A stretch of DNA of 64,000 bases from Bordetella sp. 02P26C-1 (GTDB taxonomy: Bacteria > Pseudomonadota > Gammaproteobacteria > Burkholderiales > Burkholderiaceae_B), in contig NZ_WSJB01000016.1 of the NCBI RefSeq assembly GCF_009763255.1, forward strand, positions 1 through 64,000, read 5' to 3'. Below are positions 43,036-61,131 of this stretch, piece after piece (position 1 is the first letter of the stretch; the number at the start of each line of letters is the position of its first letter). The translations under genes were made by a program, and so were the position numbers. The notes below the pieces were generated by a model, which was not told where the DNA came from, did not search any database, and was given only the letters and a program-made list of their open reading frames with translations.

Positions 43036-43537
43036 GCGCTCGTGGCGTGCCGTTCAGCACGGGTTCTCGCTGTTAGAGATGCTGGTCACGGTCGCGGTCA
43101 TCGCCATCGCGACGACCATGGTCGGCGTGAATGTCTGGCCGGACAGCGATTTGCGCGCGTTGCGGCAGGATGGCCAGCGGCTGGCGCAGCTGTTCGCGGC
43201 GGCACACGCCGAAGCCCGTCGGGACGGGGCCGAGATTCTCTGGAAGGTCGATGGGCAAGGTTACGCTTTCCTTGTCAAACCGCGACAGCGCGTTTTGCCG
43301 GCGGCCTTGCAGCGTTCCGAACCCGTAGCTGCCACGCGCCCATTTGCCGATCCGAGTCCGTTGCGGCCGCGCACATGGTCCTCGCCGAATGCGGTCACGG
43401 TCGACGTAGAGCCAGCGGGCGCCATCTCATTCAACGCAGAGTGGACGTCGGGTCCGCAGGCTGTCGAGCTCTATGACGGCGCGCACCGGGTCCGTATTGA
43501 GCGCGCTGGTCCGGGCCAGTATCGGGTGCAGTCGTGA
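43013..43537 (+). CDS. gspH: T2SS minor pseudopilin GspH
   Basis: ~174 aa. Prepilin motif HGFSLLEMLVTVAVIAI after a short basic leader, then GspH-like body (LRQDGQRLAQLFAAAHAEAR). ATG 43013 overlaps the end of gspG by 23 bp; ATG 42986 is an alternative. The stop overlaps the GTG of gspI. Confidence 0.88.
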   Translation: MPISAAGRRSWRAVQHGFSLLEMLVTVAVIAIATTMVGVNVWPDSDLRALRQDGQRLAQLFAAAHAEARRDGAEILWKVDGQGYAFLVKPRQRVLPAALQRSEPVAATRPFADPSPLRPRTWSSPNAVTVDVEPAGAISFNAEWTSGPQAVELYDGAHRVRIERAGPGQYRVQS

Positions 43538-52938: not shown

Positions 52939-54081
52939 TCAGCGCGATGGCGATGCGCTGGGAGGTTTGGCATCGCTCACGAGGCGAAATCCCACGTGCG
53001 ACATCGGGCTATAAGGGTCGGCGCCTTGGCGCGCACTTGGCCGATACGACAGGCAGTAGTTGTCGTTGCAGAGAAAGGACCCACCGCGGATGACCCGTTT
53101 TGGCGCAGTAGCAGGGACGCCGGGATCAGACGGATCGAAGGATTGCGTGGGGCCTTTAGGATTGTCGATGTCGGTCTTTTGACGAGCCTGGCTCGCAAAG
53201 TAATCGGCGCGATACCAGTCGGCGACCCATTGCCAGGCATTGCCCGTCATATCGTGCAGCCCGTAACCATTCGCGGGGAAGGTTTCCGCCGGCACCGTCG
53301 CGTTGGCGCCGCCCGCAGCGGGGCTGACCACGGGAAAGCGCTGTGCTTTCGTATCCCAGTAGTTCGCCATACGTTGGCCCTCGGGTTCCAGCTCATCGCC
53401 CCACACATAAGTCGCCTGTTCGAGTCCGCCGCGCGCGGCATACTCCCATTCCGCTTCGGTGGGCAGGCGTTTGCCCGCCCACTTGGCATAGGCCGATGCG
53501 TCGACATAGCTCACCTGGACCACGGGATGGTCGCCCTTGCCGGCGATGCTGCTGCCGGGCCCTTGTGGCTGACGCCAGTTTGCACCGGGGATGTAGCGCC
53601 ACCAGCTTGCATAATTGGCCAGATTCACGGGCGCCTGAGTGCCAACAAAGACCATGGCACCGGGTACCAGCACGCCCACCGGCGGGCGAGGTGTGCCGGG
53701 TGGCAGTTGGACTCGCACGGTCTCCCAATCCGGCACTTGCTCGGCCGTGGTGACATACCCGGTCTCGCGCACGAACCGCGCAAACTGGTCGTTCGTCACA
53801 TGCGTGACGTCCATCCAAAATCCGTTGACGCGAACGGGGTGTGCCGGACGTTCATTGGGTTGCGCAAGCTTGCTATCGCTACCCATTAAAAATCTGCCCG
53901 GCGGCACCCAGGCCATGTTTATCGGCCCGTTGATGCCATCCCCGATGGTGATGGTGTGAGGGACAGGCACGCTGTTCGCGTCGCGGCTCCAAAGCGCCGT
54001 CCCCGCCCATGCCAGCGCCGCCAGAACCACGCCCACGCCCGCCACGCTGGCAGCGAGCTTGCCTCGTTTAGTAAACGCCAT
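52939..54081 (-). CDS. Membrane-anchored formylglycine-generating enzyme (FGE)
   Basis: 380 aa. N-terminal helix (KLAASVAGVGVVLAALAWAG) likely anchors it with the catalytic domain outside the cytoplasm. The FGE-sulfatase fold spans ~50-370 (WVPPGRFLMGSD; KRLPTEAEWEYAARGG; DMTGNAWQWVADWY). The paired active-site cysteines C338 and C343 in GGSFLCNDNYCLSYRPSAR are both present, marking a true copper-type FGE rather than a mere fold relative. Its start overlaps the sulfatase gene's stop by 14 bp, so it very likely converts that sulfatase's Cys to formylglycine. Confidence 0.9.
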   Translation of the reverse strand: MAFTKRGKLAASVAGVGVVLAALAWAGTALWSRDANSVPVPHTITIGDGINGPINMAWVPPGRFLMGSDSKLAQPNERPAHPVRVNGFWMDVTHVTNDQFARFVRETGYVTTAEQVPDWETVRVQLPPGTPRPPVGVLVPGAMVFVGTQAPVNLANYASWWRYIPGANWRQPQGPGSSIAGKGDHPVVQVSYVDASAYAKWAGKRLPTEAEWEYAARGGLEQATYVWGDELEPEGQRMANYWDTKAQRFPVVSPAAGGANATVPAETFPANGYGLHDMTGNAWQWVADWYRADYFASQARQKTDIDNPKGPTQSFDPSDPGVPATAPKRVIRGGSFLCNDNYCLSYRPSARQGADPYSPMSHVGFRLVSDAKPPSASPSR

Positions 54082-56251
54082 ACGAAGGCGGGCAGGTGGT
54101 GTTCAGGTTATTTTGGACAATCGTCTCGTCCACATGGTTGGTCAGCCCGTCGAGCATGCCATTGACGAAAAAGTCGTAGACACTGGACAGGCCCCAGTTT
54201 TGCGCGATCTTGCGCCAGTTCTCCAGGTCCTGGGCATTGACGACGCCGTCGCGGTTGCCATCACCGGGGCATGCTGGCTCCGAGGCCAGCATGCGATCCA
54301 TGGTCGCGCGCAGCTCGTCATAGATGGCCAACGTGTTGGCATCAGGATTGTTCACCAACAGATTCCGATCCGGCGTATCGAGCAGCGGCACGGGGACTGC
54401 TTGGTTGATCTCGTACAGCTCATCGACCACGTCGGTCTTGCGGCCCTGGGTTGTCGGATCGAAATTCTGGGTGGTGTTGCGCACGAGTTTGTACTGATCG
54501 TTGCGCACCGCGATGGAGGTCTCCGGCATGATGTCCACCATGTCGCGGCCGGCGTTGTAGAGCGCGCGATTGACGTCTGCGCACATCTTATAACCCTCAC
54601 CATCGTTTGGAATCACCGATGCGTCGGTATAACCCGGGCCCCAATAGACGCCCTGATTGTCTTCGCACACACCTTTGCTCGTTGGAATTTGCGTGCAGGT
54701 CGTGTTGATCACGCACGGCGCGTTTCGGCCACCATTGGCCTGATAGTTCACGCCGCCCATCGTAAAGTTGATATTGCGCAAGCTCGATTGCTCGGGATTG
54801 CTCAGGTATGGCAGTAGCGCAACGGAGTCCACGGTGCGCGGTACTTCCTTATGCACATCCAGGCCCGCGATTTCACCGAAGAACTGATACAGATCCACCG
54901 CATTGACCATGTGGTCCACTTGGCGGCCGGGCTGCACGACTTGAGGGCCGGCGACGATCAGCGGATCCCACACCCCGGTTTGATATGCGGTGCCCTTGGC
55001 TTGCGATCCCACAAAAGGCAGCTTCACGGCCGATCCCAACGTGCCGTTATCGCCCACGATGACGATCACCGTGTTCGAGGCATTCGGATCGTAGATCAAG
55101 CTGCCATCCGGAGCGCGGCTCGCCAGACCGGTTTCGACCAAGATGCGGCCGAACTCCTTATCCATGGCCTCGGTCATCTGGTTCTGCAGCTGGCGACCGG
55201 TCGCGGTTGCCTGGCAGCTCCACCCATCAGACGCGAAATCCTCGGGGCCATCGACCAGCGACCCAGGGGGTTGTTGCCACGGCGTATGCGCGGCGCTGAA
55301 GCTGACCGTGGCCATCCACGGTTTGGCGCCGGACCGGGACTTGATCCATTCGATGGCGGCATCGGCTTCGGTGGTGGTGCGATACTGGCGCGAGCGTGGA
55401 TCGCTCAGCGGCACTTGTTCCAGATGGTCGCCATCAATGATGACCAGCGGGGACACGTAGTAGCCGTTTTCGCGATTGAAATTCAGGTTCGACGGCGGCG
55501 TGCCGCAGGTTTCATCTGGCACAAAGATCCCGCCCGAACTCAGACACTGCAGCCCTGCGGCATCTTGGGATAAGGCGGTACGCGTGATTTCGCGGCAACT
55601 GTTGTCGGCCTGATAGCAGGCGCCAGAGTCCGTGCCGCCCGCATGTTTGCCGGGAACAAATCCGCAGGAATACGTGCTCTCCGCGGCGATCCCGCCCGCC
55701 GTCGTATCGATCGACCCCGGCAAACCGCCAATCCACCCATAGAAGTAATCCCAGCCCAAGACGCGAGGCGTCATGTTTTCGGCTTCGTTATTCTCGGGCC
55801 CCGCCAAATGAAACTTGCCGAACATGCCGTTCTCATACCCGGCGCGTTTAAGCAGTTTCGGCACCGTCACGTCATAAGGCGAGACTTGTGAGTTCGCCAA
55901 ATCATTCGGGCCGATGGCCTGATAGATATTCGTGCGGAACGGATAGCGCCCGACAAAAAAGGAAGCGCGCCCAGGGGAGCATTCCGGCATGGACCACGTG
56001 TTATGAAACCGCAGTCCTGCATTGGCAACCGCACCGATATTGGGCAGCTTTGGCGGCGTGGCGCCACCGTATCCAAACGCGGCCATCTGATCGATGCCGA
56101 CGTCGTCCATGATCATGAACAGAATGTTGGACGCCTGAGGCGGGCTCGGCGCGGGATCTGACTCATGATGGGAGCCACCGCCATCGCATCCGGCAAGAGC
56201 GAGCGCAATCAATCCTGCCAGCGGCAGTGAACATAGCCTATTTTTCAACAT
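54068..56251 (-). CDS. Lipoprotein sulfatase with dockerin-like C-terminus
   Basis: 727 aa. Signal with lipobox LALAGC (C22). Alkaline-phosphatase-fold sulfatase: metal site NILFMIMDDVGID at ~42-54, formylglycine motif C91-S-P-G-R (PECSPGRASFFVGRYP), GMFGKFHLAGP, and IVIVGDNGTLGS. Cys at the motif means it depends on FGE, encoded next. Residues ~661-720 carry two EF-hand/dockerin-like repeats (GDGNRDGVVNAQDLENW; NGMLDGLTNHVDE). Several extra cysteines may form disulfides. Likely periplasmic or surface-exposed; substrate unknown. Confidence 0.88.
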   Translation of the reverse strand: MLKNRLCSLPLAGLIALALAGCDGGGSHHESDPAPSPPQASNILFMIMDDVGIDQMAAFGYGGATPPKLPNIGAVANAGLRFHNTWSMPECSPGRASFFVGRYPFRTNIYQAIGPNDLANSQVSPYDVTVPKLLKRAGYENGMFGKFHLAGPENNEAENMTPRVLGWDYFYGWIGGLPGSIDTTAGGIAAESTYSCGFVPGKHAGGTDSGACYQADNSCREITRTALSQDAAGLQCLSSGGIFVPDETCGTPPSNLNFNRENGYYVSPLVIIDGDHLEQVPLSDPRSRQYRTTTEADAAIEWIKSRSGAKPWMATVSFSAAHTPWQQPPGSLVDGPEDFASDGWSCQATATGRQLQNQMTEAMDKEFGRILVETGLASRAPDGSLIYDPNASNTVIVIVGDNGTLGSAVKLPFVGSQAKGTAYQTGVWDPLIVAGPQVVQPGRQVDHMVNAVDLYQFFGEIAGLDVHKEVPRTVDSVALLPYLSNPEQSSLRNINFTMGGVNYQANGGRNAPCVINTTCTQIPTSKGVCEDNQGVYWGPGYTDASVIPNDGEGYKMCADVNRALYNAGRDMVDIMPETSIAVRNDQYKLVRNTTQNFDPTTQGRKTDVVDELYEINQAVPVPLLDTPDRNLLVNNPDANTLAIYDELRATMDRMLASEPACPGDGNRDGVVNAQDLENWRKIAQNWGLSSVYDFFVNGMLDGLTNHVDETIVQNNLNTTCPPSYGVY

Positions 56252-56503: not shown

Positions 56504-56950
56504 TTACCCCTGATTCGAAAACTCACGCATGATGCGCGCAAACTCGTCGGCCGCGTTATTGATCATGCGGATATAGCGCACGAATAAACCGCTGGGCAGT
56601 TGCGGGTCCGTTGCCGAAATCAGGAACTCGGTCGTCACAATGATGTTGTCATTGGCACTGTTGGCATGGATCTTCGCGCCCTTGCAGCGGCCATTCACCA
56701 TGGAGATAGCTTGCAGAGCGGCAGCGAATTCTTCGTCGCTTTCCAACGGCCAGAAATTCGGAAACACCAGGCGCACGAAATCGGGGTCGTCGGCATCGGC
56801 GATCAGGATGTAGTTGCGGCCTTCGACCTTGAAGATCAGGTCGGCCGTCTGCGCGGAGTCATCCCATTGGGCCTGCCCACGGTTAAAGCCCTCGCTGTCG
56901 AGCAAGGTCTGGAAATACTGGGTCAAGCCCTCGGCAATACTGCGGCTCAT
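56504..56950 (-). CDS. YbjN-like / secretion-chaperone-fold small protein
   Basis: 148 aa, soluble. An alpha/beta pattern starting with a helix (AEGLTQYFQTLLDSEGF), then strands (DLIFKVEGRNYILIADADD), a helix (DEEFAAALQAISMVNGRC), long strand pair (IHANSANDNIIVTTEFLI) and C-terminal helix resembles the YbjN/type III chaperone fold. Third gene of an operon with the FtsH-like protease and the membrane protein, 30 bp downstream of the latter. Possible adaptor or chaperone for that complex (inference). Confidence 0.6.
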   Translation of the reverse strand: MSRSIAEGLTQYFQTLLDSEGFNRGQAQWDDSAQTADLIFKVEGRNYILIADADDPDFVRLVFPNFWPLESDEEFAAALQAISMVNGRCKGAKIHANSANDNIIVTTEFLISATDPQLPSGLFVRYIRMINNAADEFARIMREFSNQG

Positions 56951-56980
56951 ACTGGGTGCTCCTGTGAAAAAAGCGGGGTT

Positions 56981-58864
56981 CTAGAGTGTGTCTGGCTTTT
57001 CGACGGGGCGTATCACGCGAACCGCGAACATCAGCATCGCGATCAAAAATACCAGAAACAATAGTTGGGAAGAGGACGCAAGCGCGCTGTCTCGCCACTG
57101 ATTCAGACAGTCGGAACTGGGAGGCTGCTGCTGCACGACCTCGGTGCGAGCGCAATCCAGTGTGGTGATTGGCGTTTCGGGCGTTGCGGTGGGTGCATTC
57201 GCGTCAAGTTTCCCGCGCTCAAGCCAATACAGATAGGAAAAAGCATCCGTACCCGCCTGCAGATCGCGATGGTCCTGAATTCGCCCGCCGATCTCCAGCA
57301 GCACAAAGCTGGCCGTTACGCCCAGTGCGGCATTTCGCAGGCGCTGATGGCTTTCCAGACGGATGTGTTGCGCCTTGCTGACTTCGGCGGCGACATGGCG
57401 GCGGCGCGCGCGCACGGTGCTTTCGTAGCTGTTGACCATGTCTTTCATGGCAAAGGCGGCATCCAGCTTGCGCGCGACGCTTTCGGGCGTGAGCGCGGGC
57501 GGCTCGCCGCGGCCCAGACGTCCGATCTGCACATCCATATTGGCCTTCATCAGGTCGGCCAGCTTGCTATCGAGTACGGTCTCAATCTTGTCATTGATAC
57601 TCAGCGCCACGCGTTCGGGCAGGGTCATGCGCCGGGTCGAGAACGCATAGACTGCGCCCGCCGCACTCGCCAAAGCGATGGCCAATGTCGCGCCATCCGG
57701 CAGAAAGTGCGTACGCCAGTGCGTCAGCCCTGCTAGCCAAGGCGCCAGCATGCCTGGGGTAAAGTCCAGTCCCGGGTGCAATGACAGCAGCAGCAATGCC
57801 GCGAATGCACCAAAGGCCAGCGTGTGCCCGCAGCGGGTGAGGGCAGCGATATGTTTGCTGATCCACACGGGCAAAGTGAAATTCCAGCGATACCACAGGA
57901 GGTCGCCCAGATCGCGCGCAGGCGAGCGGTTACCTTCGCTGAGTCTGCGCCGAAGTTCTCCGGGCAAGTTTTGCATCTCCGCCGGGATCACGGGCGCTGC
58001 CTCACGTACTTCGTCCAGTAGCCGCCATAACGCGCGCGTCAGGTAGGCGCGTTGCGTGGTCGATAGCGGCAGCACGCCTACCTGACCGAACAGAGCGCGC
58101 AGGTCTTCCAACCGGTTGATATATAGCGCGAGATTGGCCTTGCTGCCCGTGATTTTGGCGATCAAGGCGGCGCGTAGCAGGATTCCATAGCGCGCGCCCT
58201 CGGTGCAAAAGCACGGGTCAGAACTCAAGATGTCGCGCGACAAACTGGCCACTAAGGATACGCAGTCATTGGTCTCTTTGGGCGGCGCAGACAGTATCAG
58301 CAACTTCAAGAGGTCTTCGTTCAACGCCGAACTGCTGGCAATCTTGAAGGAGTATCCGGCGAGGTTGTTATCGATGTTGAAACTGTTGTAGGAATCCGCG
58401 CTTTTGAAATCGTTGAGTCCTGGATGCTGCGTTTCTCTGGTGACCCGCGCAGGAGTCGGCGCAATGGATTTGTGGCTCTCAGGCGAAGTCGGCGCGTTCA
58501 GATCCGTTCGCGCGGGGCGACGCACCACCACCCGGCCACGGGCGGCGGCCCGCGAAGGCAGCAGGTTCGCTACCGCCGGCCGGTTATTCACCAGAGATGC
58601 CGCTCGCGTGGGTTTAGACCGGTTCTCTCGTGTCTCGGGCGGCGGTGTCGCGGCGGCTGGCTCGGCAGGCTGTGCGGCCACATCGGCTGGCGTAGGCGAC
58701 AAAGCCACGGCAAAGTCCATCTGCCCCGCGTTCGCACCCGTTTCAAAGTAGCAATAGACGCGTTCCTGATAATGGCTATTGGACGCGACCTCCGCATACC
58801 ACGCTTCCAAGGTCGCCAGCCACTGAGCGACGGCCTGCGCTTCTGTCTTGAGATGATCGCTCAT
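56981..58864 (-). CDS. Uncharacterised membrane protein of the FtsH-like operon
   Basis: 627 aa, no family recognised. Short N-terminal conserved-looking segment (~1-55), a Pro/Ala/Arg-rich linker (~58-150), a soluble helical part with several cysteines (~165-340), then four predicted TM helices (near 355-378, 400-420, 520-540 and 600-620) around a coiled, charged cytoplasmic-type region (LPERVALSINDKIETVLDSK; ESVARKLDAAFAMKDMVNSY). Its ATG overlaps the stop of the FtsH-like gene (4 bp). It may provide the membrane anchor that the soluble protease lacks. Confidence 0.75.
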   Translation of the reverse strand: MSDHLKTEAQAVAQWLATLEAWYAEVASNSHYQERVYCYFETGANAGQMDFAVALSPTPADVAAQPAEPAAATPPPETRENRSKPTRAASLVNNRPAVANLLPSRAAARGRVVVRRPARTDLNAPTSPESHKSIAPTPARVTRETQHPGLNDFKSADSYNSFNIDNNLAGYSFKIASSSALNEDLLKLLILSAPPKETNDCVSLVASLSRDILSSDPCFCTEGARYGILLRAALIAKITGSKANLALYINRLEDLRALFGQVGVLPLSTTQRAYLTRALWRLLDEVREAAPVIPAEMQNLPGELRRRLSEGNRSPARDLGDLLWYRWNFTLPVWISKHIAALTRCGHTLAFGAFAALLLLSLHPGLDFTPGMLAPWLAGLTHWRTHFLPDGATLAIALASAAGAVYAFSTRRMTLPERVALSINDKIETVLDSKLADLMKANMDVQIGRLGRGEPPALTPESVARKLDAAFAMKDMVNSYESTVRARRRHVAAEVSKAQHIRLESHQRLRNAALGVTASFVLLEIGGRIQDHRDLQAGTDAFSYLYWLERGKLDANAPTATPETPITTLDCARTEVVQQQPPSSDCLNQWRDSALASSSQLLFLVFLIAMLMFAVRVIRPVEKPDTL

Positions 58865-61131
58865 GACGACTGGGATTCGATGAAGGTCAATAGCGCTTCG
58901 CGATCCAGCACATGGTCAGCCTGCAGCCGTTCACTGATCGCAACCAGCACATCGCGTTGCGATTCCAACATGGATTTGGCGCGCGCATATTGATCGGCGA
59001 TCAAGGCTTGCGCCTCGGACTCATCCGGAGAGCTCGTGTGCCAGTTGGGGTGGGATGTACTGAATCCGTAAACCCCAAGTGCGGCTTCGGCGAGCCGGCG
59101 CGCGCCGGCCAGATCATTCGTCGATGTGTAGCCGCCGGCACCGGTGCTGACTTCGTCCTCGCCGAACATAATCGCCTCGGCCGCACGTCCGGCCAGCGTG
59201 ACGCAGATTCGATCGAGCAATTCGCTGCGCGTCAGATTGCGGTCGGCGCTCTTGATGCCCACAAAGCCCAACGCGCCCTGATCGTCCGAGACGACCGAGG
59301 CGATTTGCACGTGTTCCCGCAAGCTGGGAATCAACAATCCCAATAACGCATGGCCTGCCTCGTGATAGGCCGTGCGCGCGAGCTGCGGGCCATGCAGGGG
59401 CTTACGTGCGGCTTGAGGTGGAATGCTAAAGATTTCGTCTTGAATATCATCGACCGTGATCGCGCGGTTGCCGTCCATGCGCGCACGACGACGTGCGCCG
59501 CGTACCAGCAGTTCCACATCGGCGCCGGTCAATCCCAGCGAAAGACCGGCGCATCGCTCCAGGTCTTCCGATGAGATCTCATAAGCATAAGGACGCAGCT
59601 TGGCGAGATAGATCGCCTTCAAAGCAGGCACGTCGGGACGACTGATGGGAATGACCCGATCCAGCCGGCCCGCGCGCTTGAGCGCCGCGTCCACATTATC
59701 CGCATGGTTCGTCGCGCCAATCACGATGACCTGATCGCGGTCGTCAAAGCCATCGAGTTCGCTGAGCACCGCATTCAAGAATGCCGTATTCCACGATTCG
59801 TTTTGTCCGGAGAACTTCTCGCGGTTGCCCAGGCTGTCGATTTCATCGATGAACAGGATGCTGGGTGCTTGCTGACGAGCCGCGGCAAACGTTGCCGACA
59901 TCAGCTGAATGCACTCATCAAGACCGTTGCCCACCATCCAGTCCTTGACGGGTGCGACCGAGGTAAACGCGATACCGCATTCGAGCGCAATAGCGCGCGC
60001 CAGCGTTGTCTTGCCCGTGCCCGGCGGTCCGGCGAACAAGGCACCGCGATCGACTTCCTTCCATTTGATCTTGCTGCGCATGGCGAGCTGTACATCGTTA
60101 AAGAGCTGACGCGCCCAGCGCTTTGCCGATTCGACACCATGCAGATCGTCCAGGCGTACGGACGCGCCCGCCGACTGCACCTGTATGCGCTGATCGCCCA
60201 ACTGGCGCAGGCCCGCAAGCCAGTCGTTTTGATCAGACAGCGTATTGACGCATAACAGTTCTTGTGGCCCGATTGCGCTGGCCCAGGCCGATGACACCGC
60301 ACTGACATCCACATCGGGATATCGGCTCTTTGCATACTCGATCAAACGCTCAGCATTCATCATTGGAATACTGAGATAGCCATCGCTACGCACCAGCGAG
60401 CGGAACTCGCGCGGCAGTTGATTGCGCGATGTGCAGAACAGAATCATGCCGAACGCGCGCTGTTCGGCCATGCGGATCACCAGATCCTGGAAATTGGACG
60501 ACACGCGCGTGTCGAGCTGATAGGTGTTTAATGCCGGGCACAGGTTGGCCAGCGCGTTGCGCAAGTTCTTCGCGTAATGCGGAAACGGGTTTTCGACGAT
60601 GAATACCGGCAGCAGCGCGTTAACGCTCAGGCGTTCCTGAATTTGCTGCGCGACCGGCATAACGAAAAATTCCCACACGTCTTGCGTATTGGGATCCATC
60701 GGTTCGTTGGTGTCGTGTACTGATGCAGGGTCGTCGGGCGCCCGGCTTAACCCTGGCAATGCATTGCGGCGCAGCCGCGCCATCAGGTGCTCGGAGACGG
60801 CGCGTGGCGAACCCGGCGCAGCGACGGTCACGGCGGGCGAGCTGTCGGTTTCGGTGGTAGACGGCGCGGTCAGCGGCGGAGGAGGCGTATGGGTCGCAGG
60901 TGTATCGGTCTGTTTGCGACGGGCCGCGAGCTGACGCAGCAACGTTGACTGGACTTCACTCGGCTGCCGTGCAGGCTGCGCCTGTGGCGTTCTGTCGCGG
61001 GGAGAGGCGGGTGAATCGTCAGATGCGGGCGGCTCCGCGGGGCGAAGGGGCGCGGCTGGCGCCGATTTACCCGTTGGCTTGGCTCCCGTGCCGCGAAGCC
61101 AGTCAGTGATGCGACCCAAACAACCTCCCAT
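58861..61131 (-). CDS. Soluble FtsH-like AAA+ ATPase with M41 metallopeptidase domain
   Basis: 756 aa. Low-complexity Pro/Ser/Thr-rich region ~15-145; an unfamiliar domain ~150-315; AAA+ core ~325-520 with Walker A GPPGTGKTT (~368), Walker B SILFIDEIDS (~425-432), sensor-1 ATN and arginine-finger region RAGRLDR; AAA lid; M41 peptidase with zinc motif HEAGH (~590) and third ligand Asp in TSTNDLAGARR (~673). The usual FtsH N-terminal TM pair is absent and no hydrophobic helix replaces it. All catalytic residues are kept, so it should be an active ATP-dependent protease. Distinct from housekeeping FtsH; heads a three-gene operon. Confidence 0.85.
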   Translation of the reverse strand: MGGCLGRITDWLRGTGAKPTGKSAPAAPLRPAEPPASDDSPASPRDRTPQAQPARQPSEVQSTLLRQLAARRKQTDTPATHTPPPPLTAPSTTETDSSPAVTVAAPGSPRAVSEHLMARLRRNALPGLSRAPDDPASVHDTNEPMDPNTQDVWEFFVMPVAQQIQERLSVNALLPVFIVENPFPHYAKNLRNALANLCPALNTYQLDTRVSSNFQDLVIRMAEQRAFGMILFCTSRNQLPREFRSLVRSDGYLSIPMMNAERLIEYAKSRYPDVDVSAVSSAWASAIGPQELLCVNTLSDQNDWLAGLRQLGDQRIQVQSAGASVRLDDLHGVESAKRWARQLFNDVQLAMRSKIKWKEVDRGALFAGPPGTGKTTLARAIALECGIAFTSVAPVKDWMVGNGLDECIQLMSATFAAARQQAPSILFIDEIDSLGNREKFSGQNESWNTAFLNAVLSELDGFDDRDQVIVIGATNHADNVDAALKRAGRLDRVIPISRPDVPALKAIYLAKLRPYAYEISSEDLERCAGLSLGLTGADVELLVRGARRRARMDGNRAITVDDIQDEIFSIPPQAARKPLHGPQLARTAYHEAGHALLGLLIPSLREHVQIASVVSDDQGALGFVGIKSADRNLTRSELLDRICVTLAGRAAEAIMFGEDEVSTGAGGYTSTNDLAGARRLAEAALGVYGFSTSHPNWHTSSPDESEAQALIADQYARAKSMLESQRDVLVAISERLQADHVLDREALLTFIESQSS

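Follow-up and report, generated by a model that had tools for sequence, protein, structure and literature searches.

A possible split FtsH-like system in Bordetella sp. 02P26C-1: an anchor-less AAA+–M41 protease encoded with an unclassified membrane protein and a YbjN-like protein

The AAA+ protease FtsH has partner proteins that regulate it, HflKC, and an AAA ATPase can also be combined with a separate protease, as in the defence system IetAS, where the partner is an S8 protease. FtsH proteases are described as membrane-anchored (PMC9020784), and PMC7159879 places FtsH-type proteins with two AAA copies, the first of them inactive, in predicted conflict systems with MoxR and vWA partners. The structure of AmyR of Erwinia (PMC5398634) gave the YbjN family (PF10722) a fold like that of class I type III secretion chaperones, and the same paper attributes to the family an action through protein–protein interactions, without enzymatic action. 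Here, we describe a three-gene operon of Bordetella sp. 02P26C-1 that combines features of these systems. It is found in the 64,000 nucleotides of contig NZ_WSJB01000016.1 (assembly GCF_009763255.1) that were analysed and that are denoted here as the window, within a host genome of 4.10 Mb in 41 contigs. The operon occupies window positions 61131 to 56504 of the minus strand and encodes, in this order, proteins of 756, 627 and 148 residues:

58861..61131, minus strand: gene 1, AAA+–M41 ATP-dependent metalloprotease without anchor, 756 residues (open reading frame (ORF), Pfam and alignment to FtsH)
56981..58864, minus strand: gene 2, membrane protein of 627 residues without a known family, its start sharing 4 bp with the end of gene 1
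56504..56950, minus strand: gene 3, YbjN-like protein, 148 residues (from the Pfam matches of its relatives)

With this overlap and a gap of 30 bp between genes 2 and 3, the tight operon described in an initial annotation of this DNA was found as it had been given. We propose that it encodes a split FtsH-like membrane proteolysis machine, with the anchor and the adaptor provided by separate genes, a proposal that we consider evenly balanced between right and wrong. The operon itself, the co-occurrence of genes 1 and 2, the catalytic residues of gene 1, its lack of a predicted anchor and the selection acting on the genes all point in this direction. The host possesses one further M41 gene, located on another contig, which is an ordinary FtsH with N-terminal hydrophobic stretches (recognised by eye), so the operon would represent an extra system. 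The protease belongs to a known kind, the AAA+–M41 proteases, and the membrane partner encoded beside it is unclassified.

Gene 1 resembles FtsH and Yme1 (TIGR01241, M41) in carrying the AAA+ module and the M41 peptidase in one chain and in its catalytic residues, and membrane substrates are likely in both cases. Pfam recognised both domains (AAA, E = 2.9e-31; Peptidase_M41, E = 2.6e-22), and the alignment to FtsH showed that Walker A (residues 368-375), Walker B (425-432), N475, R486, R489, R492, the HEAGH motif (590-594) and D673 are kept, in agreement with the earlier statement that every AAA+ and M41 catalytic residue is present. In contrast with FtsH and Yme1, gene 1 has neither N-terminal transmembrane helices nor a periplasmic domain, it contains an extra conserved N-terminal domain (N-domain), it scores far under the cut-off of the curated FtsH model TIGR01241 (224 of 600 bits), and its anchor would reside on a separate gene. 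The idea that gene 1 is a decaying FtsH copy was rejected because its catalytic residues are intact and its ratio of non-synonymous to synonymous substitution rates (dN/dS) is low. The parts of the protein are arranged as follows:

61090..61122, minus strand: LGRITDWIRG-like N-terminal conserved stretch, residues 4-14 (alignment of six relatives)
60712..61089, minus strand: proline- and alanine-rich segment of variable length, residues 15-140, the first two thirds poorly conserved (alignment)
60166..60714, minus strand: N-domain, residues 140-322 (conservation; common to the anchor-less clade)
59422..60162, minus strand: active AAA+ module, residues 324-570 (Pfam, alignment to FtsH)
60007-60030, minus strand: Walker A, GPPGTGKT (alignment to FtsH)
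58864..59400, minus strand: M41 peptidase domain, residues 578-756 (Pfam, alignment to FtsH)
59350-59364, minus strand: HEAGH (alignment to FtsH)
59113-59115, minus strand: D673, third zinc ligand, preceded by a short GAGG-type insertion that is also present in the clade

Residues 4-14 possibly form an amphipathic helix, and the segment that follows is presumably disordered (among the six relatives, residues 51-100 are 4% invariant).

The absence of an anchor was evaluated by scanning hydrophobicity in 19-residue windows, with a threshold of 1.6 for the whole protein and of 1.8 for the region upstream of the AAA domain. No window of gene 1 exceeded 1.6, nor did any exceed 1.8 upstream of the AAA domain, and each of the six members of the gene 1 family likewise had zero windows above 1.8 in that region. 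The claim that this protease has lost the FtsH anchor therefore stands insofar as gene 1 has no transmembrane window, but the trait is not peculiar to this gene: as far as the compared sequences indicate, it is a property of a whole AAA+–M41 clade, met here mainly in alphaproteobacteria. Indeed, in a tree of 52 AAA–M41 regions, whose members were selected in part for their resemblance to gene 1 and whose supports are approximate after rerooting, the gene 1 family groups with anchor-less proteins, in a 24-leaf clade (support 0.992 and 100) and in a 29-leaf clade (0.793 and 87). None of the 29 members (L057 and L099 being short) has a hydrophobic window above 1.8 upstream of the AAA domain, and the 23 tree proteins outside this clade have one or two. 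A set of 24 comparison FtsH-type proteins gave the same picture, since 23 carry one or two such windows and the 24th falls inside the anchor-less clade. When the threshold was 1.6 and the whole protein was scanned, the relatives from Azospirillum and Neorhizobium and that at locus L052 each showed one hydrophobic window, so the statement that the clade is devoid of transmembrane helices rests on the threshold of 1.8 upstream of the AAA domain.

The clade also shares the N-domain with gene 1, and the clade members that were aligned have in common with it a linker before Walker A (L..D followed by W..VD) and the short insertion before the zinc aspartate (six members were shown aligned beside gene 1). 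For the larger N-domain comparison, 22 candidate loci were taken, 16 of which passed a motif filter (L054, L058, L060, L062, L065 and L092 were dropped, and L099 contributes 58 N-domain residues). Five of the dropped loci, that is, all except L092, were added to the tree together with L057, while the host FtsH (L001), L033 and L041 do not appear in it, their Walker A being outside the search pattern. Of 14 plasmid relatives examined, 13 are alphaproteobacterial and labelled "AAA family ATPase", the label that most of the wider class bears in the databases, and the remaining one comes from a Neorhizobium, where the gene is split in two and was left out of the tree. The anchor-less relatives L054 and L044 were placed in the same phylum only. 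In the class of genome G970, 7 of 190 genomes (G970 included) match a profile of the N-domain plus linker at E<=1e-15. Among the literature matches listed, considered by title and abstract start and with preprints and most subscription papers outside the search, no description of the wider anchor-less class was found. A second anchor-less group, with frames of about 910-930 residues, was observed at L093-L097 (regions L100-L104), outside the 24-leaf clade and inside the 29-leaf clade.

The second protein was expected from the initial annotation to have four transmembrane helices and no known family, and both expectations were borne out: each of the six members has four hydrophobic peaks, at corresponding positions (window values 1.70, 1.53, 1.20 and 2.55), and no convincing family match was obtained. 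Specifically, there was none in Pfam, NCBIfam or PADLOC at E<=1, the best E against PHROGs was 0.22, and the gene 2 profile matched nothing in the PDB at E<=1. Peripla_BP_3, matched by two of the six members at E<=10 (best 0.034), was taken as a chance match. The predicted layout of its C-terminal half is as follows:

57767..57823, minus strand: predicted transmembrane helix 1, residues 348-366 (hydrophobicity)
57638..57694, minus strand: predicted transmembrane helix 2, residues 391-409 (hydrophobicity)
57335..57637, minus strand: conserved segment rich in lysine and arginine, predicted cytosolic, residues 410-510 (conservation, charge)
57278..57334, minus strand: predicted transmembrane helix 3, residues 511-529, weakly hydrophobic (1.2)
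57068..57277, minus strand: predicted periplasmic loop, residues 530-599, with C571 and C586 invariant in 6/6 members (alignment)
57011..57067, minus strand: predicted transmembrane helix 4, residues 600-618 (hydrophobicity)

Both ends of the protein are predicted to lie inside the cell, and the distribution of lysine and arginine in the window's gene 2 fits this topology (these two residues make up 8 of 46 positions before helix 1; for loops 1, 2 and 3 the counts are 1 of 24, 19 of 101 and 5 of 70). The third loop contains exactly two cysteines in each of the six members. Between residues 401 and 550 the invariant share is 54-72%, similar to that of gene 3 (48-68%), which suggests that this stretch forms an interaction surface. 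The same figures bear on a different view of the pair, according to which gene 2 is not the anchor but a dedicated substrate of the protease; the operon would then be a switch that works by conditional degradation, with the amount of gene 2 as its output. This would suit the coupling of the gene 1 and gene 2 reading frames, present at 6/6 loci, and the fact that gene 2 evolves faster than its partners. Against it stands the conserved segment just mentioned, although such a surface is compatible with a substrate as well, and we consider this alternative quite unlikely.

Concerning the third protein, the relatives of gene 3 are 73-76% identical to the window's copy, and five of the six members, the window's being the exception, matched PF10722 (YbjN) at E<=10, with a best value of 8.7e-5, which lends some support to the YbjN-like character attributed to it. 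One member also matches DUF7713 (0.0019). Searches of the PDB at E<=1 returned nothing for the gene 3 sequence and two weak matches for the gene 3 profile (E = 0.45 and 0.66).

It had been anticipated that the three genes would co-occur elsewhere, and they do. When 84,980 species genomes were scanned by a pattern-based method, which picks up close relatives only, five loci emerged, three from Achromobacter, one from Bordetella genomosp. 12 and one from a metagenome-assembled genome (MAG) of Alcaligenaceae, all of them with genes 1, 2 and 3. At 6/6 loci, counting that of the window, gene 3 is found beside gene 2, and the gene order and the 4-bp overlap are kept. A survey of 268 genomes of the family, which covered the gene 1 N-domain and gene 2, found gene 2 in six genomes and the N-domain in the same six, distributed over 4 of 43 genera, and neither of them in the eight further genomes that represent the genus of the window. 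Since the five non-window matches are the sequences of the five loci named above (100% identity over 4.9-5.0 kb), the known loci are 6, not 11. Further afield, the N-domain was found in the window genome alone at E<=0.001 among 399 genomes of the order and 274 of the class, and gene 3 in the window genome alone at E<=1e-6 among 200 genomes of the order. Genome G004, which appeared as a third carrier of gene 2 in a set of 101 genomes (3/101), was regarded as spurious: the match (E = 2.9e-4) falls in a variable region, includes one stop and is missing from the 268-genome survey.

Gene 1 gave dN/dS estimates (Nei–Gojobori) of 0.10-0.15, gene 2 of 0.12-0.45 and gene 3 of 0.05-0.19, rough values because pairs with undefined dS were omitted and many of the remaining pairs have dS>1. 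On these estimates, purifying selection is acting on all three genes, and gene 2 is the fastest-evolving of them. Could these be three functionally unrelated genes that a small lineage happened to inherit together? The known loci are only six, and the three from Achromobacter, a single genus, share their downstream stretch (which in L003 includes a BamE-like ORF scoring below the Pfam cut-off). However, the co-occurrence is exact in four genera whose flanks are otherwise dissimilar (no flank similarity was found between genera, the MAG flank being 700 bases on one side only), and the purifying selection, together with the order and overlap conserved at 6/6 loci, indicates that the operon is more than a chance association, an explanation that we regard as highly improbable.

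Returning to the split machine, its operation can be sketched as follows. By analogy with FtsH, the gene 1 product would be a hexameric AAA+ unfoldase–zinc protease, soluble on its own, whose catalytic parts are those seen in the sequence, and its N-domain, perhaps a degenerate AAA+ ring, may offer a docking surface for partners. Gene 2, from its predicted topology, would be the membrane anchor and probably also a periplasmic sensor, in whose loop the invariant cysteine pair could form a redox-sensitive disulfide. Gene 3, by analogy with the YbjN family, would be a substrate adaptor or chaperone without enzymatic activity. An envelope or infection signal would alter gene 2, so that the protease is recruited to, or released from, the inner membrane, and gene 3 would deliver a specific substrate to it. 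The three proteins may constitute a complex, and it is conceivable that, as first suggested, they serve in stress, in the quality control of secretion or in defence against phage.

Several observations weigh against this proposal. The third transmembrane peak of gene 2 is weak (1.2), its residues 51-200 are poorly conserved (6-16% invariant), and the window's own gene 3 matches nothing in Pfam, YbjN included. Moreover, when the ORFs of 25 regions around anchor-less relatives (14 from plasmids and 11 from genomes; region L105 yielded no ORF with both motifs) were searched, no gene 3 was found at E<=1 and a single match to gene 2 appeared, at E = 0.68. This indicates that the protease class does not need genes 2 and 3, which would be lineage-specific partners. 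A catalytically intact anchor-less clade, one lineage of which is found only with its own membrane protein, raises the question of how an M41 protease is targeted without a built-in anchor, and it makes it testable whether degenerate AAA+ domains act as rings on which partners dock.

The N-domain, taken in its entirety, shows roughly the same conservation as the AAA module, and its residues 201-250 (90% invariant) are the best-conserved stretch of 50 residues in gene 1. The initial annotation had called it a novel domain; it is an extra conserved domain, but one that, according to profile comparisons, is common to the anchor-less clade, where the pooled profile weakly resembles a degenerate AAA+. 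Thus, hhalign of the window-family N-domain against that of the clade gave E = 1.2e-5 (0.29 when reversed), a value reached by none of 60 block shuffles (best 0.003), and a first comparison with a smaller set had given 1.4e-3 to the relatives and nothing convincing to FtsH. The pooled N-domain, in turn, matched the active AAA of the clade with E = 1.9e-4 (reversed, 0.16; 0 of 60 shuffles, best 0.083), the likeness sitting around sensor 1 and the following strand. That the N-domain is possibly a degenerate AAA+ domain is taken as a lead, not a result, because the window family alone scored 0.24 against the active AAA of the clade, the pooled N-domain scored 0.016 against the AAA of anchored FtsH (reversed, 0.54), Pfam found no AAA match in the N-domain, and, of the best PDB matches listed, the two shown in full cover the Walker A end and not the N-domain.

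If the lead were right, the operon would recall the MoxR–vWA FtsH ternary systems, which, as described in PMC7159879, also have a double AAA with an inactive first copy. Unlike those systems, no MoxR or vWA gene was detected by Pfam among the three operon genes and three neighbours. A fuller version of the split-machine proposal can be formulated on this basis: a soluble M41 protease with tandem AAA rings (a pseudo-AAA and an active one), a four-helix membrane receptor that carries a redox switch in the periplasm and an adaptor of the YbjN type, gated by the envelope or by phage, as the lineage version of a large unnamed anchor-less class that is partly borne by plasmids and Tn7-like elements. 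Taken in all its parts, we judge this version unlikely.

The mention of phage leads to the remaining alternative, in which the operon is an anti-phage (conflict) system, with gene 1 as a regulated proteolytic switch or effector, gene 2 as a sensor or perturber of the membrane and gene 3 as a chaperone setting the threshold. We hold it to be unlikely, with arguments on both sides. The patchy distribution described above (6/268 genomes, 4/43 genera, 0/8 other genomes of the genus) and the dissimilar flanks between genera are in its favour, as is the report, in PMC7159879, of FtsH-type double-AAA proteins in predicted conflict systems, and a tyrosine integrase adjoins the operon in one Achromobacter, the same ORF being present in a second one. 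Nevertheless, in two Achromobacter the upstream island that carries the integrase has 99.1% identity across 7,988 aligned positions and the dS of gene 1 is 0.46, which means that the island moved recently and that the operon did not move with it; a recent transfer of the operon with this island was, for this reason, rejected. The low dN/dS also argues against a conflict system. PADLOC matches of gene 1 are all confined to the AAA domain, and genes 2 and 3 had none. The AAA domain of gene 1 resembles that of IetAS (3.1e-21), which likewise joins an AAA protein to a protease, but in gene 1 the M41 peptidase is fused to the AAA module, there is no S8 protease and the partners are different. Gene 1 has matches in 28 phage records at E<=1e-20, of which the 15 listed are 30-33% identical to it in the AAA–M41 part, and pattern-based scans of IMG/VR viral contigs found no relative of the N-domain or of gene 2.

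The neighbourhoods of the wider class provide further support for a conflict role. Of the 14 annotated plasmid regions around anchor-less relatives, 5 contain defence-type genes (a DNA methyltransferase, a restriction enzyme, a TIR gene, a Kiwa-like gene, or an S8 peptidase with an ATP-binding protein, the last pair being IetAS-like in our reading). These 14 regions were chosen from listed rows, and the gene tables of PLSDB have gaps. Two regions contain TnsA-like genes with transposase or integrase-core genes near the anchor-less AAA+–M41 gene, L062:9784-10623 (plasmid) and L107:9147-11779 (genome; here the TnsA-like and transposase matches are below the Pfam cut-offs), where the protease genes look as if they were cargo of Tn7-like elements. 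The frequent plasmid location of the relatives is due in part to the search of a plasmid collection. In that collection, neither gene 2 nor the N-domain on its own had a relative at E<=0.01, and gene 3 matched two Deinococcus plasmids. In one of these, the distant gene 3 relative (L070:3956-4396) has UvrD-helicase and PD-(D/E)XK nuclease genes on one side and a WYL regulator on the other, with AAA ATPase–McrC genes further on, a stretch that also favours the anti-phage alternative. A phage-defence role for the wider class is thinkable, and it receives no support from the window's own neighbourhood.

In the plasmid regions of the anchor-less relatives, a further difference from the operon is a metallophosphoesterase gene, found in 8 of 14 (L057, L058, L059, L060, L062, L066, L067 and L068), and a PF10108 3'-5' exonuclease gene comes next in L060 and in the genome region L107. 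The neighbours in the window are of another sort and speak against an anti-phage system: downstream of the operon, a sulfatase gene and an FGE-type gene (Pfam), and upstream, a short ORF without family and MFS and SDR genes (the last two recognised by eye). The sulfatase and FGE-type genes adjoin each other at window positions 52939-56251, and the pair was matched side by side in two other genomes of the same genus. Finally, ARAGORN called at 43122-43213 a tRNA whose type is undetermined and whose anticodon has four bases (gcgc), probably a false positive.

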